Source: Parvibaculaceae bacterium PLY_AMNH_Bact1
GTDB taxonomy: Bacteria > Pseudomonadota > Alphaproteobacteria > Parvibaculales > Parvibaculaceae
Reading direction: 5' to 3'
NCBI GenBank assembly: GCA_032881465.1
Contig: CP126168.1
Location: 2,108,001 to 2,172,000 of the forward strand
DNA length: 64,000 nt
Under the pieces are notes generated by a model. The model was given only the letters and a program-made list of their open reading frames with translations, did not search any database and was not told the origin of the DNA. The translations under genes were made by a program, and so were the position numbers. Below, one piece after another: positions 23,497-51,126 of this stretch. The stretch's first letter is position 1. Every line of letters begins with the position of its first letter.

Positions 23497-23552
23497 TGGT
23501 GGCCCCACCCGGACTTGAACCGGGAAGCCCTTACGGGCGACAGATTTTAAGT
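23497..23552 (-). tRNA. tRNA-Leu(UAA) 3' half, left end (attL) of the mobile element
   Basis: Reading leftward: anticodon loop and 3' stem (ACTTAAAATCTGT), long variable arm with stem GCCC/GGGC, T-arm CCCGG-TTCAAGT-CCGGG, acceptor strand TGGGGCC, A, and encoded CCA. The 5' half is missing here; the bases beyond 23552 do not form one. The matching 5' half (acceptor GGCCCCA) is at 51126-51086. The core GATTTTAAGT (23543-23552) is repeated at 51086-51095. Confidence 0.9.
23543..23552. repeat. Integration core, left copy
   Basis: GATTTTAAGT, identical to 51086-51095. In the tRNA it is the anticodon loop with its flanks (ACTTAAAATC). Crossover most likely took place inside it. Confidence 0.8.
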
Positions 23553-26598: not shown

Positions 26599-26867
26599 TA
26601 GAACAAGTCCTCAATTCGCGACTTGCTTTTGCTTCGTGACTGGATTGTGAACTCAAGGTCGAGCGCCGTGATAACATCAAACATCGTTTGAGTTTTGATG
26701 CCTGGTTCACCAGCCTCTAGACGTGAAATTGTCTTTTGGTATGAGCCAATTTTCTGCGCCAGCTCAATCTGTGTGAGCTTCAATTCAAGACGACGATTCC
26801 GAACCGCCTGGCCAAGCTGTTTCGGGCTGCGGACAACATCTCTAGCAATGGTCTTTTTTGAAGACAT
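26598..26867 (-). CDS. hipB: HipB-like antitoxin, HTH repressor
   Basis: 89 residues. HTH-XRE domain: LGQAVRNRRLELKLTQIELAQKIGSYQKTISRLEAGEPGIKTQTMFDVITAL, then a basic tail. HipB neutralises HipA and represses the pair. Three matching operators lie directly upstream (26875-26947). Confidence 0.92.
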   Translation of the reverse strand: MSSKKTIARDVVRSPKQLGQAVRNRRLELKLTQIELAQKIGSYQKTISRLEAGEPGIKTQTMFDVITALDLEFTIQSRSKSKSRIEDLF

Positions 26868-26874
26868 ATCTAGA

Positions 26875-26947
26875 ATATACCCTATATGACATAATTATTC
26901 AATATACCCCAAATGGGATAAAAGAAAAATATACCTCATAGGATATA
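26875..26947 (-). promoter_or_regulatory. Three HipB-type operators at 27-bp spacing
   Basis: Copies begin at 26875, 26902 and 26929, exactly 27 bp apart, each starting ATATACC and ending in or near GGATA: ATATACCCTATATGACATA, ATATACCCCAAATGGGATA, ATATACCTCATAGGATATA. The second and third are clear inverted repeats, the first is weaker. The array covers the hipB promoter region. The 27-bp phasing would put HipB dimers on related faces of the helix. Confidence 0.8.
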
Positions 26948-27011
26948 TTTTCCATCCCTACAAATCATATTTTCGTATTAGTTATAGGATTTTTTGCTAT
27001 CAATTAACACT

Positions 27012-27320
27012 ATGACATCACTTATGAACATCACCAAAGCGCAGAGGAAACTTACGGAGCATCTGCGTATTCAGCGACTGAGCATAGGCCTCACACAGGA
27101 AGGGTTATCAAAACGCTCGGGCGTTCCCCTACCGACACTACGCAAATTTGAGCAACAAGGGCTGATTTCGCTAGAAGCACTTCTCAAACTAGCAATGGCG
27201 CTTGGGTGCCTAGAGAAACTTGTGAACTCTGTCGAGCCAACCACCTCGGAGTTCGCCACCATCGATGATGTGCTAGCTGCAAAGAAACCCAAACCGAAAA
27301 AAAGGGGCTGGCGGAAATGA
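27012..27320 (+). CDS. HTH (XRE) regulator, orphan antitoxin-like
   Basis: 102 residues from the ATG at 27012 (another ATG at 27024). The HTH runs LTEHLRIQRLSIGLTQEGLSKRSGVPLPTLRKFEQQGLISLEALLKLAMALG, and the basic tail ends KPKPKKRGWRK. Such proteins usually precede a hipA-like toxin gene, but nothing like a toxin follows; the next 140 bp on this strand show no family features. It diverges from hipB. It may be an orphan antitoxin or a second regulator of hipBA. Confidence 0.72.
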   Translation: MTSLMNITKAQRKLTEHLRIQRLSIGLTQEGLSKRSGVPLPTLRKFEQQGLISLEALLKLAMALGCLEKLVNSVEPTTSEFATIDDVLAAKKPKPKKRGWRK

Positions 27321-27461
27321 ATGGACTTTACATTCGTGCCTCTTCCCACCGAGCCAAAAGCTCCGAAAGACCATCAATCGAATAATCCAATTTTTCGCTC
27401 TGAAGCAGCCAGGTCCTCAGGATGCCACAATGAAACAGCCTGCATTGACCCCACTCAATTC

Positions 27462-29249
27462 CTAAAAAGTCCGCCAGGGCACCTTTGCATTCACCACTTT
27501 ATCAGGCCCCAAAATTTGAGGGACCTGATCATATTGCAGCTCTCCAAGTTGACGTCTTGTTGAATCCACGAGCTGCTTGAATGAGATTGGATTCTGCCCT
27601 GCACTACGACGCAGAATAGAAGCGAGTGAATATGTGAAAGCGCCGTAGCTCGTCACACCATGCTGATATTCGTATGCAAGCTGACTTTCGCCGCAAGCTT
27701 CCATAATAAGTGGAAGATAGGGACCAACGGGCTCATCTGTGGTCTTCTTCAATCGGTCGTATTGTGCACTCGTCATGCCGTGATATGGGACAGCACGTCC
27801 TAGGCGAAAGGTCGCGCCGTTCGAACCAAAGAAATCTTCCTTATATTCTTTGCTTCTTGAGAAACCTCGATCAAGGCGCGCAAAATCACGCGCGACCCAC
27901 ATTTGTGTTTCCACATCCCATTTCATCTCGCGATGGCGGATATCGTCCGGCGGCGTCAACCCTCTACTTTTTGCTCCACCATCGCGATGGATACCGCCAG
28001 AATGACAACAATCAAAAATCATCGCAATTCGGGAATCGTATGGAAGCTGCGTATAAAGTGATGCGATGTGATTGTCTGTAATTGCCGTCTGAGGTGACCA
28101 ATCAAAGTCCCATGGGACAAGACATTCTAAATGGTGGTCCGGCTCCCTGTCTTCACCATACTCTGGGATCCGTGCGCCATGGCCACTGAAATAAAACACC
28201 CGTTCGTCGTTGGGCTGTGGATCATCCAACAACCATTCTAGCCGCTCCAATATTCCCGACGCAGTCGCTCTATCATCCAAGCATGTCCGGATCTCATCTG
28301 GTGCAAACCCACATTCTTGCAAGACCGAACTCATTAGAAAGACGTCATTGACGCACCCATAAAGCCTATCTTGTTCCTGCGGATAGTCATTAATCCCCAC
28401 CAACAATGCACGCCGAGGTTTCCGGCGAGCAGATCGGGCAAGAGTTTTTGACCTTTTGGTTTTGTGAGCAGACGGAGAAAAACTCCGCCCATCTATCGCA
28501 TTTTCAACAATCGGCCGCCACACACCCTCAATCGTATTTTTATGTGCGAGGTATTGCTCAGCCCTATGATCAGCAAACCCAGGAAGATCAAACGGTGTTT
28601 CTATTTGCCGAAAGTTGGGGTATCTCGGCAAGCTAAGCGGTTCAGTAAAAACATCATCATGCTTATTGTACAGGTGATACCATGCCTTGGTGGGCAAAGC
28701 CCCGACACTTCCAGGCGTTAGGTTTCGGACAACAAACGGATTACCGATTTGGGACCCCAGCGACACAAAATTCATTTTGCGCAAAATAGGCGCAATATCG
28801 CCCCCGCCAGCATCGCCGTGGGTAAGAGCATTGTACGTGATAAGCGAGCCCAAGCTGTGACCGAGAACTATGTCCGGCTTATGTTTTTTGATCGCATCAA
28901 GAACGAGTTTTCTCGTTTTCCTCTGGAACCCATCATCTTCAACCCAGGCCACGACATAACCTGCTGTCCAGCGAATTCTTTCAGCTACGCTGTCTAGCCA
29001 TCCCCTCTCACGACCAACAGATAAAGTTCCACTTTTAGCAAGTTTCCAAAGCGCACCAGTGGCCTCCCAAATCGAAATATCGGTGTCTTCAAAAATGTCA
29101 TCGTAGGTGATGAAGATGGGTTCGATGGAAACCTTATTCTGGCTAGGAAAAGCTTCATCAAGTGCCTGAGACCATGTTTCTTCCCAAGTCGAATTTCGAT
29201 GATCCCCAAGTCCGTGAACGCACAATATTTTCAAATTTCTGGCTGGCAT
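27462..29249 (-). CDS. Alpha/beta-hydrolase-like and caspase (peptidase C14) fusion protein
   Basis: 595 residues from the ATG at 29249 (GGAGGAG, good spacing). Residues 6-250 look like a lipase/serine hydrolase: VHGLGD near residue 11 and nucleophile elbow GHSLGS near 130-135. Residues 278-595 are a caspase-like domain: RALLVGINDYP, catalytic His in YFSGHGA (H357) and catalytic Cys in FDCCHSGG (C415). A basic linker (KTKRSK...RRKPRR) joins them. No signal peptide. Bacterial caspase-like proteases act in abortive defence, so a sensor or effector pairing is plausible. No partner gene is next to it. Confidence 0.8.
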   Translation of the reverse strand: MPARNLKILCVHGLGDHRNSTWEETWSQALDEAFPSQNKVSIEPIFITYDDIFEDTDISIWEATGALWKLAKSGTLSVGRERGWLDSVAERIRWTAGYVVAWVEDDGFQRKTRKLVLDAIKKHKPDIVLGHSLGSLITYNALTHGDAGGGDIAPILRKMNFVSLGSQIGNPFVVRNLTPGSVGALPTKAWYHLYNKHDDVFTEPLSLPRYPNFRQIETPFDLPGFADHRAEQYLAHKNTIEGVWRPIVENAIDGRSFSPSAHKTKRSKTLARSARRKPRRALLVGINDYPQEQDRLYGCVNDVFLMSSVLQECGFAPDEIRTCLDDRATASGILERLEWLLDDPQPNDERVFYFSGHGARIPEYGEDREPDHHLECLVPWDFDWSPQTAITDNHIASLYTQLPYDSRIAMIFDCCHSGGIHRDGGAKSRGLTPPDDIRHREMKWDVETQMWVARDFARLDRGFSRSKEYKEDFFGSNGATFRLGRAVPYHGMTSAQYDRLKKTTDEPVGPYLPLIMEACGESQLAYEYQHGVTSYGAFTYSLASILRRSAGQNPISFKQLVDSTRRQLGELQYDQVPQILGPDKVVNAKVPWRTF

Positions 29250-29626
29250 CTGGTTCTCCTCCCACATGAAGCAGCGCTATTCGCGAAGTTCCATTCGGCG
29301 TTGCAGAACTACTCTTCGCCTGGACTGCTCATCAAGTTCAGAAGACACACCATTGAGGACAATATTCATCCGCCACCTGATCAGTATGAACTTCCGTTTC
29401 ATCTCCGCAGCTTTGAACACACACCAATCAAAACCGAATGCAGAAGCCTAACTGATTGACTTTATAATAAACAAGTCGTTTTATAAAGGCGGCGCAACCT
29501 TCTCTATGGCCCGAAGCAAGGTGCGGTGCCCCATCACTTAGTCAGTTCAGTAGTTGTCATATGAAAATCGGACAAACGATGAAGACTCGAAAATTCTAAG
29601 GAATAAATGCAACCAGGAGCCCCTCC
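29250..29626. other. Intergenic region between divergent genes
   Basis: About 375 bp between the caspase fusion and a small membrane protein gene. It must hold both promoters; no gene, RNA or strong repeat recognised. Confidence 0.4.
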
Positions 29627-30101: not shown

Positions 30102-31592
30102 TCAAACATAAAACCGGTAAGAGGAATTAGGCGTATCATCTTGATCAAATTCAGTCATCAACTCACCAACCCGCCGCGCAAATAAGAGAGTAATTGGAAG
30201 GCTCCCAATCCCGTCACTCGAATTCCAATTCATCTTGGTAAGCGCCAAAATCTCTCTTGCTCGCTCCTCCATGTCAGTAGGTATAGCACTGCCCATCTCA
30301 ATTGGAGCAGGGATATGTGCCCCTGGGTATTCCTGCCACCATGGAACATAGCCGCTGGTAAACAGATAGTACTTGTCGTCAAAAGTACAAAACGTTCCAC
30401 GCCATGGCTCCTCCTTACCTTTTCGCACAATACGAAAAGGAGTTGAGCGCAGCCAAATCATATCAAGCCTTGGAACGCACTCCCTTGCCGCCTCTCCAAA
30501 GCCGGACATTTCCTCTTCTTGAAACACCGTAGTTTTATGAACTACCACCCTATCGGGCATGACTCCCGCTCGATTCTCATATTCACTCAGCACTTGATCT
30601 AGGAGCGTTCTTGATTGGTCCTCATTCAGATATGGCTGTCGGTCGCGCCTTTGCTCATGATTGATATTCTCACCTTTGAGAGAAAAAGGCTCAACCTCAG
30701 TTGAAAAAGCCTGTGCAACACTGGCATAGACGAGATGCCCGCCTCGCTTCTTCATATGATGAAAAGTGATCCCCACAAAACACACGTTCGACGGCAGATC
30801 ATGTGGGCGCCAAGGTATCCCTTTGGCTTTGTAATAAATTGATGTCGCAATATTCCAGATTCTTGTTGCATGACTTTGCCCCTGATCATCCCCTCTCTCT
30901 ATTGTATTTCGACGCAATACTTGTATGGGAACCGCGTTATCAAGCATCATAACCTTAGCTTTAAGGGCTCTATAAAATGTCCGAAATAGAAGATCATCGG
31001 CCATGGTGTATAGAGCCTCTGCTTCCTTCAGTTCCTCCGGCGTTGGTTGGAATAGAGCAAGCTGATCAGACTCTTCTTCTTGCCTCAAAACCTCAAGAGC
31101 GCGCTTTTCTTCAGGAGTTAGAGCCGGGTTCGCCGCCCTAAGGTCACCCAGCTCCGCTGGAATACAGACCACGACACAATCAGGTCCCTCATCGCCAAAC
31201 AAGCCACCGATCTTTTCACTAAACAGATCAACCAACCTCTGAAAACCATCTCCACTGCGGGTAGTCGCCCAGAACTTCCCATACAGACTTTTATCAATTT
31301 TTCGAATATGCCGTTGGTCAATACTGAAGTTAGCTCCAAGAGCATTGCTAAGCCCCGGCCATCGCCGATATCTACTAGAATTTTTTTCATGTGCGGGGCG
31401 AAAGGCGGAGAATCCTTCGATCCACATTCTCGCTGCCTCAACTTCGTCTGGCAAACCAACAATCCCCAGTTTGACGGTCCGTTCGCCACAAAAATCAGCT
31501 GGCTTATAATTCACCAGCCCTCTTCGAGGGTCTATGTCAGTGGATAGATCGCCAAAGCTGATCTCAGGTTCACGCAGAATACTTATTCTCAT
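30102..31592 (-). CDS. Short prokaryotic Argonaute (MID-PIWI)
   Basis: About 496 residues; the ATG at 31592 overlaps the upstream gene by 23 bp, and ATGs at 31604 or 31634 are alternatives. Typical short pAgo: no N or PAZ domain. The MID region has PIQVLRRNTIERG then Q..ATRIWNIATSIYYKAKGIPWR, the PIWI part GITFHHMKKRGGHLVYASVAQAF, DQSRTLLDQVLSEYENR and MPDRVVVHKTTVF. Short pAgos are catalytically dead guides that sense invader nucleic acid and activate a partner. The partner here is the SIR2-AlbA-APAZ protein encoded immediately upstream. Confidence 0.88.
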   Translation of the reverse strand: MRISILREPEISFGDLSTDIDPRRGLVNYKPADFCGERTVKLGIVGLPDEVEAARMWIEGFSAFRPAHEKNSSRYRRWPGLSNALGANFSIDQRHIRKIDKSLYGKFWATTRSGDGFQRLVDLFSEKIGGLFGDEGPDCVVVCIPAELGDLRAANPALTPEEKRALEVLRQEEESDQLALFQPTPEELKEAEALYTMADDLLFRTFYRALKAKVMMLDNAVPIQVLRRNTIERGDDQGQSHATRIWNIATSIYYKAKGIPWRPHDLPSNVCFVGITFHHMKKRGGHLVYASVAQAFSTEVEPFSLKGENINHEQRRDRQPYLNEDQSRTLLDQVLSEYENRAGVMPDRVVVHKTTVFQEEEMSGFGEAARECVPRLDMIWLRSTPFRIVRKGKEEPWRGTFCTFDDKYYLFTSGYVPWWQEYPGAHIPAPIEMGSAIPTDMEERAREILALTKMNWNSSDGIGSLPITLLFARRVGELMTEFDQDDTPNSSYRFYV

Positions 31593-34131
31593 CGGAAGGG
31601 TCATCAGGGACCAAACCTTTCTCTTCAACATCAACAGTGAAGAACGATCCGTCTAACAATAAATCATCGGCATGTGCGCCACCGATATTTATAATTTGTT
31701 CACCGCGCGAGAGAAAACGCTCCCAAAACACAAGGTCGCTATCAACATTCGCATTGCGGTCAAACTTGAACCGTGACGTCGATTTCTTAGACCGCAGGTA
31801 GCCAGGAAGAGCAGTCTTCCCGTCGGGCTTGGTAAACATATAAAATGGCTTAATCCGCACCCCCCATAAACTGGATGTGGAAACGACCTCATACCCAATC
31901 CCCTCGCATTCGAACCAGGTATTGCGACCTACCTCACGCTTTTTTGCAACACCACGTGAGATACCAGTCCGCCTAGGCGTATCATATACAATCATCCGAT
32001 TTGCGCCATTTACTCCGGTAAAAAATGCCCTCTTAGTTGGTCTCCCGCGCTTGTCCTTCTCAAGTGTCAGCCCATCATTAGAAAATGATGCGAGGTGCCC
32101 TTCAAAATGCTTGCGCATAAGCCACGACATATAGCGCTGGGTTACTTTGTCTTGAAAAGTACTATCGGTGGGCAGCTCATCAATATCACCTTCAAGTGCG
32201 TCCCCGAGAAGCAGCGAAAGAACAGCCGCGGGTGCAAAGCTCAAAAAAGTATCGCTTCGCTTCTCAAGAATAAATGTTCCAAGCTCATCTACCTGCGCAT
32301 ACCTTTTCAGCGCATTCCATCCTCCAGGAACATAAGCCCGCTGCATAGATTCGGGCACAGCAGTAAACGGCAGCATATTGACAACATAGGTCCCCACGGG
32401 GATGGTCGCTCGGGCAACTCCAGTTGAGCCCGCGGATGCCTCTGGTTGATACAATGTCGCCATGAAATGATCCCGCCCCGGCGGAAACGTAAAAGACGCA
32501 CCCCCGCCGTTACTTTGCGAGAGCTCCACCGTATCAGCGAGCCCGGTACCTGCTCTTTCCATCGCACTCAGCCCGAAGAACACATCACATAGGGACCGGT
32601 TTCTCAGTTCACTAAACTGCGGTATGGGCTCAAACTTACCTTCAGCGTCACAATTCAAGCGATCCGCTGTCTCAACTGAAATCCCGCCTGGATTCTCAAA
32701 GTCAATGCCGACACTCGTAGTAACATTGATTGTCGCCAACTCCTCGATTGCATAGTCCCGGTGAACCAGCAAATTCATAAGAACTTCCGACAAGGCTCGT
32801 TCGTTATAGGCAGATTGATCCTTGTGAACCCTCTTACCTTTCAATTTCAATGGAGGATTAACATCGCCCCCCTCCAACCACTCATGAAGTTCCCTGTGTT
32901 GCTCAATCAAGTTCCCTGAGAAAACTCGGCGACGCTTATGATCAACAGTTGCGGAAACAACGGCGTGAGGGAAAAACCGTTGTGGTTCACGACCAAACAA
33001 CAAGACAGCACCGCTTGAGGGCCTCTCACCGTTGTCGGTTGCTACAAGTAAACCTAGGTCTCGCATAAAGGGTTTGAGCTGATCCGATTGAAGGGCACCC
33101 ATGCCAACCTTCGAGCTATATTGGCGCAGAACGCTCAAAGCCAAATCAGAATTTATATCCCCCCATCCCGCTTTACTGGAGGGCAAATCATCAAAGCCTG
33201 GCACCTCCAAAACTGAGGAAACATCGAAGTATCGCTTTACATCCACCAACTCCCGATTTAGGCCATCGAATAGTTGGTCAAACCCCTTCACCTCAAGGTG
33301 ATGGAAGTTAGGACCCAAACGCTCCTTAAAGCGCACAACGTTTTCGTGCAACCCTTCTCCTTCAAGAGTGCACCAAAAAACACCCTGTCGAAACAACCGC
33401 CCGCTTCGCTCGCCAAGCAAAGAGTCCATAACCGACTTCTCTGCACCTCGATATCCCGCTACGATGAGAGGCGTATTGTCCAGTAGCGGGCCCAAGTGCT
33501 CGGTCAGTTTATCAGACAGAGAGTCTGTCTCATTGACTAAGTTACGATCAGTATACTGTTCAGTTTTACCGTGAAGCCAAACGATCTGGGCCCTTGCATA
33601 CAAATCAAACTCATTGAAGTCGTCTGGTCCTCGGTTAACCTCCGCAACATATCTAATGTGCGGATGCCTTTCCCTAAGCGCTTGAGGTAGACATATGTCG
33701 AAGTTCGTAGTGAGTATGGTTCCAGCGAGACCGCGCAATACCAGTTCAGAAAGACTGTGATAACCGCTTCCAATATCACCATCCAAGTGAACTAAATCCA
33801 TAAGCACTTTGCGACGGTACGCCTCGGGTCTCAAAAGGTGCTCAACTACTAGGGGAAAATTCTCAGCAAGCTTGTCTTCACCCGCAAGGAACCAATCATG
33901 CCTCTGAAGCCACGCTTGCCATTCAGATGGTTTAATGCGCTCCGGTAAGACCCTACCACCAAGCTCCCGCTCAGCATAAACACGCCTAGCTATGCGCTTC
34001 ACGCATTGCGAAGCAAGCGGAATACCAGACGAAAAAGAAGCACCAGCCCCCAACAAAACCGTTGGACGCGCATCATTTTGGCCAGGGCGGAATAGAGAGG
34101 CCAACAACCGAATTGGATTTGACTCTGTCAT
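31570..34131 (-). CDS. SIR2-AlbA-APAZ effector partner of short Argonaute
   Basis: 853 residues. Residues ~20-290: SIR2 NADase-like domain with VLLGAGASFSSG (about 26-36), TNFD (about 142) and WLHGKTE (His ~187). Residues ~340-560: Schlafen/AlbA-RecG-like module with GAVLLFGREPQRFFPHA, LMNLLVHRDY and RNRSLCDVFFGLSAMERAGTG. Residues ~600-853: likely APAZ, the Argonaute-binding domain. SIR2-APAZ systems deplete NAD when the Argonaute finds a target and so stop phage or plasmid spread. The added AlbA module is a rarer layout. First gene of a two-gene operon. Confidence 0.85.
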   Translation of the reverse strand: MTESNPIRLLASLFRPGQNDARPTVLLGAGASFSSGIPLASQCVKRIARRVYAERELGGRVLPERIKPSEWQAWLQRHDWFLAGEDKLAENFPLVVEHLLRPEAYRRKVLMDLVHLDGDIGSGYHSLSELVLRGLAGTILTTNFDICLPQALRERHPHIRYVAEVNRGPDDFNEFDLYARAQIVWLHGKTEQYTDRNLVNETDSLSDKLTEHLGPLLDNTPLIVAGYRGAEKSVMDSLLGERSGRLFRQGVFWCTLEGEGLHENVVRFKERLGPNFHHLEVKGFDQLFDGLNRELVDVKRYFDVSSVLEVPGFDDLPSSKAGWGDINSDLALSVLRQYSSKVGMGALQSDQLKPFMRDLGLLVATDNGERPSSGAVLLFGREPQRFFPHAVVSATVDHKRRRVFSGNLIEQHRELHEWLEGGDVNPPLKLKGKRVHKDQSAYNERALSEVLMNLLVHRDYAIEELATINVTTSVGIDFENPGGISVETADRLNCDAEGKFEPIPQFSELRNRSLCDVFFGLSAMERAGTGLADTVELSQSNGGGASFTFPPGRDHFMATLYQPEASAGSTGVARATIPVGTYVVNMLPFTAVPESMQRAYVPGGWNALKRYAQVDELGTFILEKRSDTFLSFAPAAVLSLLLGDALEGDIDELPTDSTFQDKVTQRYMSWLMRKHFEGHLASFSNDGLTLEKDKRGRPTKRAFFTGVNGANRMIVYDTPRRTGISRGVAKKREVGRNTWFECEGIGYEVVSTSSLWGVRIKPFYMFTKPDGKTALPGYLRSKKSTSRFKFDRNANVDSDLVFWERFLSRGEQIINIGGAHADDLLLDGSFFTVDVEEKGLVPDDPSDENKYSA

Positions 34132-36067: not shown

Positions 36068-36571
36068 CTAGCTGGATTGCACAATGTACGCGGTATCATT
36101 GATTTCCAGCTCGGCGATATCTCCACCAAGGAGAAGATCACGAGCGAAACTTTCCGTGTCAAAATAGAAGCGCAGGTTTTCAGGGATTTGTTCTAGAAGA
36201 CCAGTATCTTCGAGATAGTTCTCTGTGTACTCAAGTGCTGTACCCTCAAACAGATAGACATCATCCAGGCGATCCAGAATATCGCTCATGAGACAGCATT
36301 GCTCTTCGGCCAGATAGATGGCTTTGATGGTGTCTTCACCCTCAAGAGCTTCAAAGTGCTCAAACCAGTCTTTCAAACTGGCTTGGCAAACACTCAAGGC
36401 TGAGAACAAACGGCTGTTCTCGCCATCGATGAATTGAATTTCATATTCTTCGACCAGTGCACCATGCTCATTGCGATGAGTGGCGGACTTGATCTGATAC
36501 TCTTCATAAGTGTTGAAATAGAAACCAGTCGCAGAAATATCGTAAGGGGTTGCATGATAGATACTTGTCAT
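36068..36571 (-). CDS. ardA: ArdA-like antirestriction protein
   Basis: 167 residues, the usual ArdA length. N-terminal YHATPYDISATGFYFNTYEEYQ and VEEYEIQFIDGE match the family; the protein is strongly acidic (C-terminal IPENLRFYFD, ARDLL, DIAELEINDTAYIV). ArdA mimics DNA and blocks type I restriction enzymes, protecting incoming conjugative DNA. GGAGATGACC precedes the ATG. It is on the same strand as the recombinase gene upstream. Well placed on a mobilizable element. Confidence 0.88.
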   Translation of the reverse strand: MTSIYHATPYDISATGFYFNTYEEYQIKSATHRNEHGALVEEYEIQFIDGENSRLFSALSVCQASLKDWFEHFEALEGEDTIKAIYLAEEQCCLMSDILDRLDDVYLFEGTALEYTENYLEDTGLLEQIPENLRFYFDTESFARDLLLGGDIAELEINDTAYIVQSS

Positions 36572-36723: not shown

Positions 36724-37335
36724 TCACAACACCAACGAATACAACTCCTGGATCTCTTCAGCCTGAATGCCCAGATAATCCAAGGTCTGCTTCTGGGTGC
36801 TATGCCCAAATGCTTCCATAAGGAGCGGAACGGCAGCCTTGTTATGAATGCGCTGGTGATAGCCCCACGTCTTACGCAGTGAGTGCGAACCATAGTTACC
36901 CTTAAGACCAGCTTCAGCACACCAGCGTTTGACCATATGATTGACGGCACTCACGCCAAGTGCCGCTCGCGTCTTCTGTGACCAGAACAACGGAGATTCA
37001 GACACCGGGTTTGGATGAACTGCCAACCATACGTCTATGGATTTGACGACCGCTTCATTGAGCGTAATGGCTCGGTACTTTTTGGTTTTCTTCTGCCAGA
37101 GCTCAAACCGTTCACCGGCCTGCAAGTCGCTCACGTCGCCTACCTTTATGGATAGAAGCTCGTTTGCCCGGTAGGCCGTGTTGATGCCGAATGTGAACAG
37201 GCACATGTCACGCGGATTGTTTTCCCGTAGCTTCTTGATGCGCCGAATGCCTTTAAGGCTTCGGATTGGCTCAACCTTGATCGATGAACCTTTGGCCGGA
37301 TGATTGTGGTTTCTTGCTTTGTTTTTGGTCGGCAT
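36724..37335 (-). CDS. Short tyrosine recombinase, FimB-sized
   Basis: 203 residues, lacking the N-terminal arm/core-binding domain of full integrases, as in FimB/FimE. Catalytic set: Arg in NTAYRANELLSIK, Lys-rich KKTKKYRAI, HSLRKTWGYH (HxxR), GHSTQKQTLDYLG (His and Tyr nucleophile). It stands 143 bp from a pair of 19-bp inverted repeats (37479-37615) and could flip that segment. An alternative role is resolution or excision of the element; the true integrase is at the other end. Confidence 0.85.
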   Translation of the reverse strand: MPTKNKARNHNHPAKGSSIKVEPIRSLKGIRRIKKLRENNPRDMCLFTFGINTAYRANELLSIKVGDVSDLQAGERFELWQKKTKKYRAITLNEAVVKSIDVWLAVHPNPVSESPLFWSQKTRAALGVSAVNHMVKRWCAEAGLKGNYGSHSLRKTWGYHQRIHNKAAVPLLMEAFGHSTQKQTLDYLGIQAEEIQELYSLVL

Positions 37336-39133: not shown

Positions 39134-39475
39134 GTGGCATTGGGATTCAACAGAGAAAAGAAAACAGGTGGTCATACCGCCGAAGACAGGGCGCGGTGGC
39201 GCGAAGCAACCAAGCCAGATGACCGCAGCACATATCCAATAGTGCAGCAAATCAAAGTCGATGCCTTTCAGGGTGCCTCGCAGGCATTCACTCGGCGCTT
39301 TGAAGAGCACCAAGACCTCATTGACGACGGTCGCGCCAATCGCGCGCAGGAAGCAGCAGAAAAAGCTGCCAATGGGCAGGGATTACTGCGTATTCCAAAA
39401 GGCTGGCCTTCACTGATGGAATGGACAAAGGGCGCGCCGCTCCCACCAGATGACGGCAAAGATCTGGAATACTAA
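39134..39475 (+). CDS. Small hydrophilic protein, unknown
   Basis: 113 residues from a GTG with AGAAGAG upstream. Charged and soluble, with no signal peptide. C-terminal LRIPKGWPSLMEWTKGAPLPPDDGKD. It converges with the relaxase gene and overlaps it by 4 bp. No family recognised; it may be a mobilization accessory by position. Confidence 0.55.
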   Translation: MALGFNREKKTGGHTAEDRARWREATKPDDRSTYPIVQQIKVDAFQGASQAFTRRFEEHQDLIDDGRANRAQEAAEKAANGQGLLRIPKGWPSLMEWTKGAPLPPDDGKDLEY

Positions 39476-40476
39476 AGCTCATATTCGTCGAGTTCGTCGC
39501 GGTCGATACGCCGCGGCTTACCTTTCCTGGGGCGCTTTAGGCGCTCCATCAAGCTGAGCTGGCGTCCAAACACCCAATCTCGAATGGATTGCCCTGCACG
39601 CACCACGCGATCTTTGAGGCCTCGGGCCATATCCCAGTAATCTGTTGGCTGCTGACGCTCAGCCTGGCGTTCTTCGGCGTAGTCCTTGAACGATTTCCCA
39701 AAGCGGTCTTCTAACTCAGTTTTCCGCACTTTTTTACCCATCTCGGAGAGCTTGGCGTATTTCTCACCATTGGTGAGGATCAGCCCCGGTCCTTTCGCAT
39801 AGAGGGTCACCCCATCCTCCTGAAGCTTCTGCTCCAATGCTTCCCAGCTATCAGCTGCTTCGAAGGAAGGTGCGAGCTTATCCTTCAAGTCCGTCACATC
39901 TTCTTTGCTCCAATGGTCGAGGGTTGCTACATCCAATCGCTCGGCCATGCGCTGTTCACCCTTCTGAGGGCGCCTGCGTGCCTTCTCAGATGCTTTCCCA
40001 TTGCCTAGCCGCCCTGGAACCTCTGTGAGGCCGAGCTCCTTCTCCTGTGCTTTAAGCGATTGCTCCAATCGCGTCTTGTACTTCCACTTTTCCCAGGCAA
40101 CGCCTGTCTCCGGATGCACCCGGTTGACCATCACATGGACATGAGGGTGATCCGTATCGTTGTGGGCAACGATAATGGCCTGATGCTCTTCCAGGTCGAG
40201 GTCAGAAAGGGTTCTGTCAGCGATCTTGAGCATATCTTCCTGGGGAAGCTGCTCATGCTCAGGCCAACTAATCGAATAATGAAAAACGGGGTCTTGCACC
40301 CGTTTCGACAGTGCCGCAGTCGCCCGCATCATGGCGGGCACCAACTGCGGATCATCTGTCGGCAAATTGCGGGCTGCAGTCCATTCCACCCTTTCAGGGC
40401 TATCTCCCTTTCGACCGAAATGGAGATATTTGGCCAGCCCGCTAAAGCCGGATCCCGTACGGGCGTCTCCAATCAT
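39472..40476 (-). CDS. Relaxase/mobilization nuclease (MOBP-like)
   Basis: 334 residues. Motif III HNDTDHPHVHVMVNRVHP near residues 105-122 gives the His triad; N-terminal GSGFSGLAKYLHFG. It nicks the transfer origin and leads the strand to the recipient. The C-terminal half is charged and coiled (AERQAERQQ). Starts 14 bp after mobC with GGGAGG. A VirD4-like gene lies on the other side of the presumed oriT region. An unusually short relaxase, possibly trimmed at the C-terminus. Catalytic Tyr not located. Confidence 0.85.
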   Translation of the reverse strand: MIGDARTGSGFSGLAKYLHFGRKGDSPERVEWTAARNLPTDDPQLVPAMMRATAALSKRVQDPVFHYSISWPEHEQLPQEDMLKIADRTLSDLDLEEHQAIIVAHNDTDHPHVHVMVNRVHPETGVAWEKWKYKTRLEQSLKAQEKELGLTEVPGRLGNGKASEKARRRPQKGEQRMAERLDVATLDHWSKEDVTDLKDKLAPSFEAADSWEALEQKLQEDGVTLYAKGPGLILTNGEKYAKLSEMGKKVRKTELEDRFGKSFKDYAEERQAERQQPTDYWDMARGLKDRVVRAGQSIRDWVFGRQLSLMERLKRPRKGKPRRIDRDELDEYEL

Positions 40477-41120: not shown

Positions 41121-43424
41121 ATGAAGAGAATGCCGGACAGCAACAACAAGACCGGAACTGCCAAAATCCTCGCACCGCTGGAAATGCTCGGTGCTGGCAT
41201 TGTCAGAGCATGGGAACTGAGCCGCCAATACCTCGAAGACCAGCAGCTGCAGAAATGCCAAGCCCACATAAAAGCGTGCATTACTAGAGCAGAGCCCCAC
41301 CAGGATGAGCCGGAAATCGCGGATATACTGGTCTCCATCCCGGACACCTGGGAAGAAATGGCCCTGCCGGAAACCAAAGCCCTGGAGCGCCGTGTTTGTG
41401 TGAAACTGGATGCACTATCGGAACAGGCAGCACAAGCCATAGCTTCAGCAGAGAAGGAAGCAGAAGCCCAGGCCGTTCGCACAAAACGCTGCGCCGAAAT
41501 CCTATCTCTGATGAATGATGAATCCTCAGTCGCAGAGTTCAACGCAGGTGAGGTTCTGAAGAAAGAGCACCTTGAAAACTTCAGGAGAGTGCTCAAAAGC
41601 AGTGGCCCGCGTGGCAAGGGTGTTGTCGATCAAATTGATGATGCGGAACTTCAAGCGACGGCAGCCAACAACTACCCAAAGAACATTTCCTTTAGTTGTG
41701 CAGTTGGCCAAATCCCTGAAACACAGAGGCAGCTTCTGCGGATAGGTGCGGTTCTCCTAAAACATGACATCATCGACCCTGAATGGATTGAGCTTGCCTT
41801 AGCAGGAGCAATATTTGAGTTCGGAAAGGCGCGCGTTTCCCAGCGCCCCGATAGCACAAGCCGCGCTCAAAAAATCGCCCTTAACACGCTGATAGAATCC
41901 TTGCCTGTCTACCTGGTTGATTCCGGCCAATTGCAGGAAGACATTGCTCATCTTTCCAATCAGCTTCAGACCAAGCACCCCAACACGCCAGCAGCACAGG
42001 AACTCGCCAACCTGGCAGGCGGCGGTGCAGCCTGGCTAACCGGGGCAGATATTCCAAAGAGCATCTACAATCCAGCTATGGGCGACGGATTGTTCTTAGG
42101 TGCATTGGAAGATGGCACCTTTCTGAACTATGACGGTGAGGGGTCACTCTTCACCATCGCCCCTCCCGGCGCAGGCAAAAGCCGCTGCCAGGTGATCCCG
42201 AACCTGCTGACCTATAGCGGCCCAGCAATCGTCCTCGACATCAAGGGTGAGTGTTATAGCGACACCGCCGGGTTCCGTTCCCAGCGCTATGGCAAAGTCA
42301 TTCGCTTCGCACCTCACGATAAAGAAAACTCTGCTCGCTATAACCCGCTCGACTTTGTGAGAAACGATCCAGAGCATCTTGCATCTGATGCCCGCAAGAT
42401 GGCGGACATGCTGATCGTTTCCAACAATGCAAAAGACCCGTATTGGGACAACAAGGGTCGAGACTTCCTTACTGCCTACATCGCCTTTATCGCCCTCCTC
42501 TCAGAGGGGGACAAAGAGCGCAACATGGCGTCGGTCATGGACATGATGTCGCCAACCGCTGACATGCTTGAAAACGCAATAGAGGCACTCAGAGATACTG
42601 GCATTAAGTTTCTGGAGCGGATGGCAAATCAAATGGAGACCATCCCCCAGAAACAGCGAGAGTCCGCAATGGACGTTGCTCGTACCCATCTCAGCGCATG
42701 GGACTTGGGCGACCTGGACGCTCTGACGACCCATTGCGACTGGAAGCCCGAAGAGTTCAGAAACCAGGACAACCCACCAACCCTTTACCTCTGCATACAG
42801 CCGGAAGACATAGGCAGGTTTGCGTCAGTGATCCGTGTCATCATCGGCCAACATCTGGAACATTTCCTGAAAGAGCTTCCGGAGGACGTTGAGAAACCTA
42901 TCGTCTTCTTCCTCGACGAAGCACCACAGCTTGGAAATTTCGAACCTCTTCCCAAAGCCGCATCACTTGGGCGGCAATATGGCTTGCAACTCTGGTTGTT
43001 TGCACAAAACCGAGACCAGATTGAAAAGGCTTATCAGAATGCTGAGACCATCCTCGGCAACGCCGTTGTTCAGTGTTGGATGAATTGCGACGAAGATGCA
43101 GCAGCCAATCTGGAAAGAAACCTCGGCAGATCAAGAGGCCTGCTTGATGGCATGGAGAAGCCGCTCGTACAGTCACACGAAATACGCGGACCCGAGTACA
43201 ACGACAAAATCATCCTTGTTGGCAGAGGGCAAAAGCCCGCAAGACTTCAAAAACACATGGTGTTCAATGACGAAACCCTGAGCCCACTTCTTGGGCTAGA
43301 TGTTCTTGCTACCGAGGATATCGTTCATGTGGAGGAGAGCTCTTATTCTGCCGACGAACATAAGCCGGTTGACGCTGGCGACGTGAGCAGTCCCGAGCAA
43401 GCCGACACCAGTCAGCCCAACTGA
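41121..43424 (+). CDS. VirD4/TraG-type coupling protein
   Basis: 767 residues. Walker A in FTIAPPGAGKSRCQ (about residue 347), Walker B in PIVFFLDEAPQLGNF (about residue 593). The N-terminal ~290 residues have no clear paired membrane helices, unlike classical VirD4. It delivers the relaxase-DNA complex to a type IV channel. GGGGAGAGGG precedes the ATG. No channel genes are in this element, so transfer must use a helper. Confidence 0.88.
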   Translation: MKRMPDSNNKTGTAKILAPLEMLGAGIVRAWELSRQYLEDQQLQKCQAHIKACITRAEPHQDEPEIADILVSIPDTWEEMALPETKALERRVCVKLDALSEQAAQAIASAEKEAEAQAVRTKRCAEILSLMNDESSVAEFNAGEVLKKEHLENFRRVLKSSGPRGKGVVDQIDDAELQATAANNYPKNISFSCAVGQIPETQRQLLRIGAVLLKHDIIDPEWIELALAGAIFEFGKARVSQRPDSTSRAQKIALNTLIESLPVYLVDSGQLQEDIAHLSNQLQTKHPNTPAAQELANLAGGGAAWLTGADIPKSIYNPAMGDGLFLGALEDGTFLNYDGEGSLFTIAPPGAGKSRCQVIPNLLTYSGPAIVLDIKGECYSDTAGFRSQRYGKVIRFAPHDKENSARYNPLDFVRNDPEHLASDARKMADMLIVSNNAKDPYWDNKGRDFLTAYIAFIALLSEGDKERNMASVMDMMSPTADMLENAIEALRDTGIKFLERMANQMETIPQKQRESAMDVARTHLSAWDLGDLDALTTHCDWKPEEFRNQDNPPTLYLCIQPEDIGRFASVIRVIIGQHLEHFLKELPEDVEKPIVFFLDEAPQLGNFEPLPKAASLGRQYGLQLWLFAQNRDQIEKAYQNAETILGNAVVQCWMNCDEDAAANLERNLGRSRGLLDGMEKPLVQSHEIRGPEYNDKIILVGRGQKPARLQKHMVFNDETLSPLLGLDVLATEDIVHVEESSYSADEHKPVDAGDVSSPEQADTSQPN

Positions 43425-44611: not shown

Positions 44612-46798
44612 TCAAGCGGTACAGGCGGCTATCAGCTCATTGTGAAGCTGCGCCAAATGCTCCGCGGACATGTCGAGTATAGGTTCATACATGAACGAAT
44701 TCAGGTGAATGTTTTCGGGTGTCATCAAGTTCACGCGATCCATAAGCACGATCAGTGATGCATGCACATCATCTTCGCCAACAACCTCTTTCAGCTTACG
44801 AAGAAGCTTCGCTGTCTGGTTTTTGGTAATGCCATTTACGAACGCCTCATCATTGATGACCTTAATCATCTTTGTTTCGGCGGAAAGGCGGATTGCTATC
44901 GATAGAACGACTTTCTTCTCGAGATCGAGTGCAATTTCACCAGTCTCGGCAATAGTCTTTGCGGTGTCGAGAAGAAGCGGTATCACGGCTGTATCTAATG
45001 CTAATTCCGTTTCAAATTCCTGCCCATTTAGGACCTTCTTATAGATGGCAAAAAGATCAGAAAGCGTTATCGCATTGCTATCCGCTTTCTGATGCAGGAG
45101 GCTCGTAAGCCTGCCTGACTCTTCCTTAAAACCACAATAGTCCGCCAAGTTCCTCACGAATGGGATCATGGCCAACAGGGCATCAGTTTTATCTTCTGTA
45201 TTGGCGATTGCTTTCCATTTTTCAAAAGGATCGCGATACATTTTCTCGTTAGACAGCTCAACTTTTTCAGATGTCTTAGAGACGTGAAAATTGGCGCCGC
45301 CTAGATCTAAGCGCTTCCAAACAGTCCTATAAAAGTCGTAGTTGTGCGTCAGTATGATTTGCCGAAAATTCGGTTCAACTAGTATGTCGCTTAGGTATTC
45401 AACAATGGCGTATTTGTTCTTGTAGTCGAACGAGTCGGCGATATCATCAATGATGAACAGCGTAGGCACCCCTTCGCTCTTACGCGCCTCCACCTCAAAA
45501 ATGATGTTGAGAATATATAGCGCCCGCCGCTCACCATTGCTCAACACGTCAACAAGCTGATCGCGGCTTACTGATATCGGTTGCGCTGAATCGTCCTCAA
45601 ATGTGAAGCCAATATTCGGCGTCGACCGCTTCAGAATAACGTCTTGCTTGTTTTCAATGCTCACTTTGAAGGGGACTGAAAAGCGACGGTTGAAGATATT
45701 GATCACCTCCTGCCATTTTGTCGCTTGACCTGATGCTTCTTGAGCGATCTCGTCCAGCCGTTTTTTGCCTCCCGAAAACTCATCCATGAGCTCTTCAAAG
45801 TCTTCCTTGTGGATCATCAGGTAGGACTTCAACAAATCCTCTTTGAACACGTCGGGCTTCTGTAAGCGCGGTATCAGTGTTTGGTTCGAAAGGAGAAATT
45901 CCCGAAAGTCTCTAAGTTCCTTATTGGTGAGCTTTTTGTCGATTTTTTCAAATTTCCCCTTCAGTGTGTCATCCGAAAGGATAGCCCCCAATTCTTCTGA
46001 AATTAGCTTCTCTAATTCTTTCTCCGTTTCGACCTTCGTATCTTCGGTTTCAGAGTGTAGGTACACCTTGTGCTCAGCTTGGAAGAACCCATGATTCTTT
46101 AGCTGCTTTGCAATTTCTCCAGCCTGATAGTGGTTGAAAACACCTTTCCTGAAGAAGCGCGACTTTTCCAAAAGAGTGTCATAGGTGGCAGTATAATCCT
46201 CCAATGCAGCTTTCAGGTCTGGGTCAGCTAAAAAGGCTTCAACCTTGCCGTTGAAAAGAGAGCCATATTTGATTCCCTCAAGCGACTTATCAAATGGATC
46301 ATCCTTAACCTCGGAACGAACGCGGTCGAGCGCGCGAAGCAAATTGCCTTCCTTTTTCGAAATGACTATCGAAAGAATTTCTTCAAGACCCGCACGTACA
46401 CCCGATGTCTTTTTTAGTTTTGTAATCAGGGCGTCTTGTTTTTCCTGAATCGACTTCAAGATGGAGTCGTACTCTGCCTTTAGGTCCTTGTTCACGAGAA
46501 GCGTCGATACACGTCCGGACTGATATCCAGCATCGTAGGGCTCTATGACAAATACAGCCTCGGCAGCAAGCTCGTTGTCTTCATGATCCAAAATAGATCG
46601 CTTGGTCTCTCGGTCGATGTAAATCCGGTCGCGCGATGGTGTCGTCGTTCCGTGGTCTTTGAACGTCATCGCGAATGATGATTTCATTGCGCCGTTTGGC
46701 GCGTAGATAAGTTGCGCAAGCTTCTTTGTAAAATCGAACTCGGCATCCATCTTTCGAATGCCATAGCAGTGCTCAAAAGAGATCTTGATTTTTTCCAC
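44612..46798 (-). CDS. AAA_13-type ABC ATPase (PrrC/RloC-like)
   Basis: 728 residues from a GTG with GGAGG upstream. Walker A YAPNGAMKSS (residues 32-41), long coiled-coil middle (about 120-390), signature LSNGERRALYIL, Walker B LFIIDDIADSFD (about 450), H-loop LTHNYDFY (about 480). The layout matches ATPases of the PrrC/RloC and other AAA_13 groups, several of which carry anticodon nuclease or nuclease domains. I see no Zn hook and cannot place a nuclease site in the ~220-residue C-terminus. Likely a defence ATPase. Confidence 0.72.
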   Translation of the reverse strand: MEKIKISFEHCYGIRKMDAEFDFTKKLAQLIYAPNGAMKSSFAMTFKDHGTTTPSRDRIYIDRETKRSILDHEDNELAAEAVFVIEPYDAGYQSGRVSTLLVNKDLKAEYDSILKSIQEKQDALITKLKKTSGVRAGLEEILSIVISKKEGNLLRALDRVRSEVKDDPFDKSLEGIKYGSLFNGKVEAFLADPDLKAALEDYTATYDTLLEKSRFFRKGVFNHYQAGEIAKQLKNHGFFQAEHKVYLHSETEDTKVETEKELEKLISEELGAILSDDTLKGKFEKIDKKLTNKELRDFREFLLSNQTLIPRLQKPDVFKEDLLKSYLMIHKEDFEELMDEFSGGKKRLDEIAQEASGQATKWQEVINIFNRRFSVPFKVSIENKQDVILKRSTPNIGFTFEDDSAQPISVSRDQLVDVLSNGERRALYILNIIFEVEARKSEGVPTLFIIDDIADSFDYKNKYAIVEYLSDILVEPNFRQIILTHNYDFYRTVWKRLDLGGANFHVSKTSEKVELSNEKMYRDPFEKWKAIANTEDKTDALLAMIPFVRNLADYCGFKEESGRLTSLLHQKADSNAITLSDLFAIYKKVLNGQEFETELALDTAVIPLLLDTAKTIAETGEIALDLEKKVVLSIAIRLSAETKMIKVINDEAFVNGITKNQTAKLLRKLKEVVGEDDVHASLIVLMDRVNLMTPENIHLNSFMYEPILDMSAEHLAQLHNELIAACTA

Positions 46799-49378: not shown

Positions 49379-49694
49379 TGGTGCGGACGGCGGGACTCGA
49401 ACCCGCACGGGCATACGCCCAACAGATTTTCTTACCAACCACGGCTTTCACCGCCACCCTGCTCGGGCGTTTGTGGTCTGGACTATCCCTTCACCATAGT
49501 CAGCAAGCTGACGTTAGGTGCTGCCCGTCTAGTCTCTACACCTTCCTCTAAACTTTCATTCAAAGGCTTGGCTCGGGATTGCCAACAGCACACCTGTAAG
49601 GTTTCCCCGAATTTGAGCAGTTCTACTCCAAGCGTTTCCACAAGGGCACTCAATAACTTAAGTCTGTAGTGTCTACCGATTCCACCACGTCCGC
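49379..49694 (-). tRNA. tRNA-Leu(UAA), intron-containing
   Basis: 5' exon 49694-49660 (35 nt), intron 49659-49431 (229 nt), 3' exon 49430-49379 (52 nt); spliced 87 nt. Spliced cloverleaf: acceptor GCGGACG/CGTCCGC perfect, D-stem GTG/CAC, anticodon stem ACAGA/TCTGT with loop CTTAAAA (anticodon UAA), long variable arm GGGC-GTAT-GCCC, T-arm GCGGG-TTCGAGT-CCCGC, discriminator A, CCA encoded. It decodes UUA and UUG. It lies 56 bp after the integrase stop on the same strand and differs in sequence from the split host tRNA-Leu(UAA). Confidence 0.95.
49431..49659 (-). ncRNA. Group I intron in tRNA-Leu(UAA)
   Basis: Inserted between U34 and A35, the position used by tRNA-Leu(UAA) introns of cyanobacteria and plastids. 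Core elements read on the minus strand: P AATTCGGGGAAACC (about 49613-49600), Q AATCCCGAGCCAAGCC, R GAGACTAGACGG (49536-49525), S AAGGGATAGTCC (49491-49480), with P7 pairing ACTA/TAGT. The 5' exon end ACTT pairs with GAGT in the intron, giving a U-G wobble at the splice site, and the intron ends in G. No endonuclease gene inside. Looks like the small IC3-type tRNA introns. Confidence 0.93.
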
Positions 49695-49750: not shown

Positions 49751-50932
49751 TCAGGGATCAAGATGGTCTTCCACCTCAACCTCGTTGACAGCTCGCTTTC
49801 GAGGGCGACGAACATTGATCGCCGCAGCGTTCAACGATGTTTTGATGTGCGCCGCATAGTACTTCTCAATCATCTCCACACTCGTCCGGCAGTTCTTTGC
49901 AATCTGGTAGATATCCGCCCCCTCCATGAGCCTTAGGCAGATGTAGGTATGCCGAAGGCTATAAGCGGTGCGCCTATTGCCTTGGCGATCAAATTTAAGG
50001 TCTTCCTCCGCAAGCACATTGTTGAGTTGGGTGGTATGCCTCACGCTGAAAAGAAGGTCTGTCGGCTGGGGACTGTTCCTTTCAACCAACCGTTGAAAGG
50101 GCCGAACAGCCCCAACCGTGCTCTTGCAATATCCCACGCCACGCTTCCCGCGCACTTCAATTTCAAGGATAGTTTCATCGGTGTCCTCGTCATGGACGAC
50201 GGACACATCTCTATATTGGATGTGTCTGACTTCGTCTGGGCGCAACCCTGTGTTGGCCATAAACAGGACGAAGTCATGAAGTTGCGCGCAATTCCAGGCA
50301 TTTCGCGTACCCTTCGCAGCTCTCGCCCGACGGCGCGTGGCCTCGTATAGCTGCTTGTATTCGTCCGGTGAAAACCAAGCCCTATGGGAGATTTTCCCAG
50401 CCGTCTTGTAAGGCATGGAAAGGTCAGGCAGATGTTGAAGCCAACCGTGGCGGATGGCTGTTTTCAACACCTGCCGCAGTGCAACAATTTCCTGATGCAT
50501 AGTACTACGTGCCGGAGGCTTTCCATCAGGCGCATGCTCCATGCGATGGATGCGATACTCCTGAACCTTGCCGGATGTCACTTCTGAAAGACCAAGGTCT
50601 CCAAAAAAGGGCAGCAGGTATTTCTTCAGCCGTCGCTTGTTGCCTTTGACATAGATCGGACTTCGATTGCCATCGGTGATGATCTCGTATTCCCGCTCAT
50701 ACTGCTGAGCGGCGAAGGCAAATGTCTTCTCATCCTTGATCTCCCCGCGACGGCTTTTGCCTCGGAGCTCTAAATACCAATCCTCAGCAAAGTCCTTCGC
50801 ACGGGAGAGGCTCTCCTCTTTGGTCGTCGTCCGTCGGTTCTTCCCGTCTAGATAAGTTGAACATTGCCAGCTGCTACTCCCGTCCCGTTTATAAACGTGG
50901 ACTTTCCCTCCCATGATCACGTGTTTCGCCAT
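49751..50932 (-). CDS. Tyrosine recombinase (element integrase)
   Basis: 393 residues from the ATG at 50932 with GAGGAG at good spacing. N-terminal arm-binding part (GGKVHVYKRDGSSSWQC), SAM-like core-binding domain (residues ~85-185), catalytic domain with Arg in NTGLRPDEV, AYSLRHTY (the usual first His is Tyr) and Tyr in MIEKYYAAH. It lies 117 bp from the right core at 51086-51095, as expected for integrases at an element end. Likely catalyses insertion into the tRNA-Leu anticodon loop. Confidence 0.92.
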   Translation of the reverse strand: MAKHVIMGGKVHVYKRDGSSSWQCSTYLDGKNRRTTTKEESLSRAKDFAEDWYLELRGKSRRGEIKDEKTFAFAAQQYEREYEIITDGNRSPIYVKGNKRRLKKYLLPFFGDLGLSEVTSGKVQEYRIHRMEHAPDGKPPARSTMHQEIVALRQVLKTAIRHGWLQHLPDLSMPYKTAGKISHRAWFSPDEYKQLYEATRRRARAAKGTRNAWNCAQLHDFVLFMANTGLRPDEVRHIQYRDVSVVHDEDTDETILEIEVRGKRGVGYCKSTVGAVRPFQRLVERNSPQPTDLLFSVRHTTQLNNVLAEEDLKFDRQGNRRTAYSLRHTYICLRLMEGADIYQIAKNCRTSVEMIEKYYAAHIKTSLNAAAINVRRPRKRAVNEVEVEDHLDP

Positions 50933-50968
50933 ATGTCTCACTCCTCATTGCGCCTCACACGGCATTTT

Positions 50969-51049: not shown

Positions 51050-51126
51050 TGGTGCCCATGGTCAGACTCGAACTGACACTGTAAGGATTTTAAGTCTGCT
51101 GCGTATACCAATTTCGCCATGGGGCC
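51050..51126 (-). tRNA. Chimeric tRNA-Leu at the right end (attR): host 5' half plus element 3' half
   Basis: 77 nt. The 5' half (51126-51086: GGCCCCA acceptor strand, D-arm GCG/CGC, GCAGA stem, CTTAAAA loop) matches the host fragment at 23497-23552. After the core the element supplies CTTACAGT, a T-arm GTCAG-TTCGAGT-CTGAC, CATGGGC, A, CCA. The anticodon stem has mismatches, the long variable arm is missing, and the acceptor pairs badly (GGCCCCA with CATGGGC). So it is unlikely to be a working tRNA-Leu. Confidence 0.85.
51086..51095. repeat. Integration core, right copy
   Basis: GATTTTAAGT, direct repeat of 23543-23552. Flanking bases differ, so identity is limited to 10 bp. Confidence 0.8.

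Follow-up and report, generated by a model that had tools for sequence, protein, structure and literature searches.

Group I introns in tRNA genes are usually seen as neutral parasites or relics, and those of cyanobacterial and plastid tRNA-Leu(UAA), which are of the IC3 type, reside in a chromosomal or plastid gene and have an ancient vertical and some horizontal history. In this work we analysed a stretch of 64,000 nucleotides from Parvibaculaceae bacterium PLY_AMNH_Bact1, called here the window, in which such an intron interrupts a tRNA-Leu(UAA) gene located on an integrative element. Why should an element carry this gene, and is the intron of any use to it? We propose that the element inserted into the tRNA-Leu(UAA) gene of its host and replaced it, and that the intron of the replacement is spliced from the RNA and masks the gene, as DNA, from the element's own integrase; taken as a whole, this account seems to us on balance probable.

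The intron-bearing tRNA-Leu(UAA) gene

The gene occupies positions 49379–49694 of the window on the minus strand and is interrupted after U34 by a group I intron of 229 nt. The preliminary description, made from the letters of the sequence, had claimed a perfect spliced tRNA-Leu(UAA) of 87 nt, a 229-nt insert with P, Q, R and S elements, a U-G wobble at the 5' splice site with a terminal G, and a site between U34 and A35, and had proposed an Infernal search for a group I core; on all of these points our results agree with it. The 5' exon (49660–49694, minus strand) stops at U34 and ends in ACAGACUU, the intron (49431–49659, minus strand) opens with AAGUUAUUGAGUG, and the 3' exon (49379–49430, minus strand), in which CCA is encoded, opens with AAAAUCUGU; both direct reading and ARAGORN place the insert between U34 and A35. 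ARAGORN does not see the gene without its intron option, but with it reports a tRNA-Leu(taa) with an intron start position of 36 and a length of 229, and folds the spliced 87-mer as a perfect tRNA-Leu(UAA) with its CCA. Read directly, the exon ACUU pairs with the intron GAGU, which leaves a U.G wobble at the 5' splice site, and the final intron base is a G. A cmscan search of Rfam matched RF00028 (group I intron) at 49669–49462 on the minus strand with 56.0 bits (gathering score 50) and E 1.6e-11, and the P, Q, R and S core elements as well as the P7 pairing are present in the covariance-model alignment. In an RNAalifold analysis of 29 homologous introns (that of the window and 28 others), 21 of the 50 consensus pairs showed compensatory double changes. 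Intron size, tRNA position and sequence agree with subgroup IC3, to which we presume that the intron belongs. We predict that it is very likely self-splicing, and we infer that the gene is expressed in vivo and that, as is highly probable, the intron is removed by splicing; promoter prediction gave nothing just upstream of the gene. The intron shares with its cyanobacterial and plastid counterparts the tRNA, the U34/A35 position, the group I core, the U.G pair and the terminal G, but unlike them such introns are found here on integrative elements of Proteobacteria, Acidobacteriota and Binatota.

Insertion site of the element

The native tRNA-Leu(UAA) gene of this genome is in two pieces located at opposite ends of a 27.5-kb element (23543–51095). 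Nucleotides 1–41 form attL (51086–51126, minus strand) and nucleotides 32–87 form attR (23497–23552, minus strand), and both pieces are 100% identical to the native gene of congeners, which is intronless and begins with GGCCCCATGGCGAAATTGGTATACGCAGCAGACTTAAAATCTGTCGCCCG. The two halves overlap by the 10-bp core ACTTAAAATC, which lies in the anticodon loop and the first part of the 3' stem and is present in two copies at the bounds of the element. Joining the flanks in silico restores exactly the intact native gene of the sister species, and the DNA around the reconstructed site, which adjoins MoCF_biosynth and SfsA genes, is 88–89% identical to congeners over 1.6 kb; the 27.5-kb element was therefore inserted in the anticodon loop. 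The intron-bearing gene is absent from all six congeners examined. That an insertion into the native tRNA-Leu(UAA) gene was coupled with replacement of the lost gene is, on the strength of these comparisons, almost certain.

At attL the host 5' half is joined to a tRNA-like 3' half derived from the element (51050–51085, minus strand), and neither the anticodon stem nor the acceptor stem is rebuilt. The chimera scores 36 bits with the Rfam tRNA model (51053–51124) and is not called by ARAGORN. The same segment, 51053–51124, was considered as a working second tRNA-Leu gene and rejected, as it consists of the host 5' half and element sequence. A hidden intact tRNA in attP was likewise rejected, since ARAGORN finds none, and so was the 3' end of the intron-bearing tRNA as an attachment repeat, since it is present in a single copy. 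Direct repeats of at least 25 bp were not found around the element, because the core is only 10 bp long, and the motif CYTTACACA, used for arm-type sites, showed no excess over chance in the window.

Gene content of the element

Between attL and the replacement tRNA lies a gene for a tyrosine recombinase of 396 amino acids (49751–50941, minus strand); its Pfam match is weak, in spite of which its 382 relatives define a strong family. The element also encodes a MobA/VirD2-type relaxase (39472–40476, minus strand; PF03432, E 4.7e-31) and a VirD4/TraG-type coupling protein (41121–43424, plus strand; PF02534, E 1.2e-56). A type IV secretion system of its own is absent from the Pfam hits of the main ORFs, virion proteins are absent from the Pfam and PADLOC hits of the main element proteins, and the integrase was found in none of the INPHARED phages. 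An integrase, a relaxase and a coupling protein, with no secretion system among the Pfam hits, fit an integrative mobilisable element rather than a phage.

The cargo includes an ArdA antirestriction protein (36068–36571, minus strand; PF07275) and, as a putative defence system, a short prokaryotic Argonaute with a SIR2-APAZ-type partner (30102–34131, minus strand), detected by PADLOC with E 1.4e-135 for pAgo_I and 1.1e-128 for the SIR2 partner. This pair is SPARSA-like and lies near a HipA/HTH pair and a caspase-domain protein (25288–29267, minus strand; Pfam). A candidate defence ATPase of 728 amino acids (44612–46798, minus strand) matches PDC-S46 from end to end (PADLOC, E 1.8e-255) and bears a weak likeness to the anticodon nuclease PrrC. 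A second, short protein with a Phage_integrase domain (203 amino acids, 36724–37335) is encoded in the middle of the element.

Loss and replacement of the tRNA

In the 3.74-Mb single-contig genome ARAGORN finds tRNA-Leu genes with the anticodons TAG, CAA, CAG and GAG elsewhere, and no tRNA-Leu(UAA) besides the intron-bearing gene. The host's own gene being split, the intron-bearing gene is therefore now the sole tRNA-Leu(UAA) found in the genome. The preliminary description had placed the gene on an integrative element as opposed to a stable tRNA set: the first half of this statement holds, and the element is now mapped to the base, but the opposition fails, as no other tRNA-Leu(UAA) is found for a stable set to contain. 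Among 6586 codons sampled from host genes 12 are UUA (1.8 per 1000), so that, given standard decoding, the intron-bearing gene must supply the essential tRNA. It follows from the lack of another tRNA-Leu(UAA) that an essential tRNA gene is lost to the insertion and that the element makes up for it with a replacement, which would then, as far as gene content and codon usage tell, be essential for the host after integration.

In the mechanism that we propose, the tyrosine integrase would recombine at the anticodon-loop core ACTTAAAATC of the single tRNA-Leu(UAA) gene of the host. Integration would destroy this essential gene because attP does not rebuild the tRNA, and the element would survive because it carries, directly downstream of int, a complete tRNA-Leu(UAA) that replaces the lost one. 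These are the features of tRNA-dependent integration: a short core lies in a host tRNA gene, the tRNA is rebuilt at neither junction, and a tRNA of the same isotype is present on the element with no other host copy found. In tRNA-dependent lysogeny, described for the mycobacteriophages Fionnbharth and Gaia, the core is about 10 bp long, the tRNA is not rebuilt and the phage carries a tRNA of the same isotype (PMC10865867). The window element resembles these phages in its 10-bp core, in the tRNA that is not rebuilt and in the same-isotype tRNA that it carries. However, that system belongs to actinobacterial phages and no intron was described in the phage tRNA, whereas the window element encodes a relaxase and a coupling protein, and a group I intron interrupts the att core of its replacement tRNA. 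In the open-access literature, which leaves out most subscription papers, we found no report that combines tRNA-dependent integration with an intron-bearing replacement. Our observations would extend tRNA-dependent integration from actinobacterial phages to widespread integrative elements of Proteobacteria and Acidobacteriota. They would also mean that a tRNA gene gained by horizontal transfer can take the place of an essential one of the chromosome, and would thereby account for the scattered distribution of the intron.

Related integrase loci

A scan of GTDB contigs yielded 382 relatives of the integrase, 80 of which were kept as loci; with the further genomes that were added, 95 integrase entries were compared. 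About 36 of the 95 have an intron-bearing tRNA-Leu(UAA) downstream of int on the same strand, usually at a distance of 55–180 bp, a few of the genes being cut by contig ends. These cassettes occur in Alphaproteobacteria, Acidobacteriota and Binatota, and the 5' half of a host tRNA-Leu is located about 130 to 220 bp upstream of int and ends at the same core. The intron-bearing gene lies one gene further from int at locus L221, and elsewhere on the locus at L114 and L131. In another genus of the same family (genome G014), the native tRNA-Leu(UAA) is also split, with its halves 27.7 kb apart, and a tRNA-Leu(UAA) with a 212-nt intron is found just downstream of an integrase 62% identical to that of the window. 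The preliminary description suggested that such introns can travel with mobile tRNA genes and called for a search for related elements. The suggestion is borne out by the absence of the gene from the six congeners, by the rebuilt empty site and by the roughly 36 related integrase loci in several phyla that the search returned.

The replacement tRNA is intronless in 13 of the 95 entries, in which it is mostly a tRNA-Leu(CAA). In a third group of relatives the target (fMet, Phe, Arg, Lys or Thr) is rebuilt, mostly without a cargo tRNA. Ten acidobacterial loci (L140, L145, L149, L150, L156, L160, L162, L163, L165 and L166) have a tRNA-Leu split at attL and no replacement tRNA-Leu in the flanks examined. 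A pattern search of named genomes, among them Edaphobacter and Nitrobacter, gave no usable match to attR. Of 385 genomes sampled from the class, 12 contain a member of the integrase family.

Several other loci have features of their own. The genome of the window encodes a second integrase, 67% identical to the first, between two tRNA-fMet genes (C1:2942900–2945600; L030 801–1620, L023); one of these is a rebuilt attL and the other apparently a copy carried as cargo, and about 300 bp further downstream lies a decayed intron-bearing tRNA-Leu(UAA) that lacks its 5' exon and looks like the fossil of an older cassette. Genome G014 contains a further tRNA-Leu(UAA) 3' half, 87% identical to the native gene (C17:109734–109788), perhaps the scar of another element. 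In genome G020 the native-type tRNA-Leu(UAA) of the genus was not found, and the sole tRNA-Leu(UAA) detected (C4:280025–280111, L089) resembles the element-borne copies and adjoins a MoCF_biosynth gene. In genome G022, a prophage of about 40 kb with a T7-like RNA polymerase and an unrelated tyrosine integrase (C10:112130–152401; L090, L093) splits a tRNA-Leu(UAA) gene and carries an intronless replacement tRNA-Leu(UAA) with the altered core end AAAATT; this, to judge from the sequence, is tRNA-dependent integration outside Actinobacteria.

The intron and the attachment core

The intron splits the att core of the replacement gene (GACTT|AAAATC). Once spliced, the core is the wild-type GACTTAAAATC in 28 of the 28 intron-bearing replacements that could be read completely, so that a cargo gene without the intron would have an intact attachment core. 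Of 11 lineages of intronless replacements, 7 have a core that departs from the att core, examples being CACTCAAAATG, GTCTCAAAAAC and GGCTCAAAATC; the only intronless UAA replacement of the integrase family (L122) has CACTTAAAATG, compared with GACTTAAAATC in attP. The 5' halves of native tRNA-Leu(UAA/CAA) genes keep GA(C/T)T(C/T)AAAA in 114 of 116 cases from 96 genomes, and the difference between 7 of 11 and 2 of 116 mutated cores gives a Fisher p of 1e-7, or about 1e-5 with a stricter count of independent origins (5 of 9 mutated). A phylogenetically corrected test cannot reach significance because it has only two supported independent pairs. On the integrase tree, replacements with and without intron are interleaved, with nine switches that track the identity of the target tRNA.

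The wild-type spliced cores, the mutated intronless cores and this interleaving lead us to propose that the element's own integrase must be unable to use a replacement tRNA as attB, and that this would be achieved by mutation of the core or, for UAA genes, by the intron. Lying between U34 and A35 of the replacement, the intron would sit in the middle of the sequence recognised by the integrase; at the DNA level the gene would thus lack an intact attB, and splicing of the RNA would restore a normal tRNA. Masking would avoid self-integration, or recombination of attL or attR with the cargo gene. It is not strictly required, as the intronless replacements of L117/118, L124 and L173 keep the core. 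We give an even chance to masking of the replacement from the element's own integrase as the reason why the intron has been kept, and slightly less than that to the intron being a functional part of the element that conceals the att core in DNA and is removed from the RNA. If true, masking would be the first selectable role of a tRNA group I intron, and it offers these introns a concrete adaptive role. It would also be a bacterial example of an intron that shields a tRNA gene from an integrase, and it makes testable a long-standing view of tRNA introns as guards against integrating elements. As reported in PMC4390854 and PMC4033280, Randau and Soll (2008) viewed split and intron-containing archaeal tRNAs as a protection against integration. 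Their hypothesis shares with ours an interrupted tRNA gene protected from site-specific integration, but it concerns a defence of the host in Archaea, whereas here, in Bacteria, the protected gene would be the replacement tRNA of the element itself, with an intron predicted to be self-splicing.

Stable intron-bearing genes and alternative explanations

Because the gathering score of RF00028 misses four of five test introns of this group, we built a model, R1, for an intron census. R1 finds introns of this kind in 48 of 385 genomes of the class. Among the 30 R1 loci that were read, some are tRNA-Leu(UAA) genes beside housekeeping genes (L222, L223, L224, L226), and others are tRNA-Arg(CCU) genes or tRNAs with Lys- and Gly-like sequence. 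The preliminary description was right to place the window gene on a mobile element, but intron-bearing tRNA-Leu(UAA) genes also stand beside housekeeping genes in Alphaproteobacteria, without a related integrase. Group I introns are known in tRNA-Arg(CCU) of Agrobacterium and tRNA-Ile(CAU) of Azoarcus. Like that of the window they are small, lack an ORF and lie in proteobacterial tRNA genes, and tRNA-Arg(CCU) introns also score with R1, but their tRNA and position are different and they showed no integrase link in the loci read here.

Stable genes of this kind elsewhere in the class are what would lend credit to regarding the window gene as an ordinary chromosomal intron-bearing tRNA-Leu(UAA) that by chance stands beside an island; to this we attach next to no probability, as the gene is situated within the element at 1.4 kb from attL, the host's native gene is in two halves, and in congeners the empty site contains the native gene without an intron; the reconstruction of that site rules this reading out. 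Stable genes also favour hitch-hiking, which is the main rival of masking because similar introns also occur in stable chromosomal tRNA-Leu genes. The tRNA-Leu(UAA) captured by the element would already have had its ancient intron, which would be neutral baggage, and its position at the att core would be a coincidence, since group I introns and integrases both favour anticodon loops. Consistent with this, alphaproteobacterial intron-bearing tRNA-Leu(UAA) genes are found without a related integrase, for example beside MoCF_biosynth and SfsA (L224) or a histidine kinase gene (L222), the introns of stable and mobile tRNA-Leu genes are intermingled on the intron tree, which is poorly resolved, and the intron is tied to tRNA identity, being present in UAA copies and never in CAA or UAG copies. 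However, 36 UAA replacements of the integrase family have the intron and a single one (L122) is intronless, although chromosomal donors of an intronless tRNA-Leu(UAA) are far more frequent, and intronless replacements tend to have core mutations instead. The stable intron-bearing copies may equally be former cargo retained after loss of the element. We consider hitch-hiking a real possibility, of somewhat less than even probability.

The core mutations on which the masking proposal draws could also have another cause: the altered anticodon stems of intronless replacements might evade anticodon nucleases and not the integrase, in which case they would be uninformative on the intron. The element carries a PrrC-like candidate ATPase, and van den Berg et al. 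in 2023 reportedly proposed that phage tRNAs mutated in the anticodon loop escape host nucleases. Here, however, the changes mostly affect the stem pairs 30–40 and 31–39 and spare the loop sequence around the anticodon, which makes nuclease evasion unlikely.

The RF00028 gathering score and ARAGORN used without its intron option both miss these genes, for which reason this essential tRNA is probably missing from the annotation of many genomes. Among the intron-bearing tRNA-Leu(UAA) genes in a housekeeping context (L222–L226), that of L224 is located at the MoCF/SfsA site, which is the target of the window element. R1-type introns are also found in Lys(UUU)- and Gly-like alphaproteobacterial tRNA genes (L209, L213, L217, L218 and L219), with no related integrase nearby.
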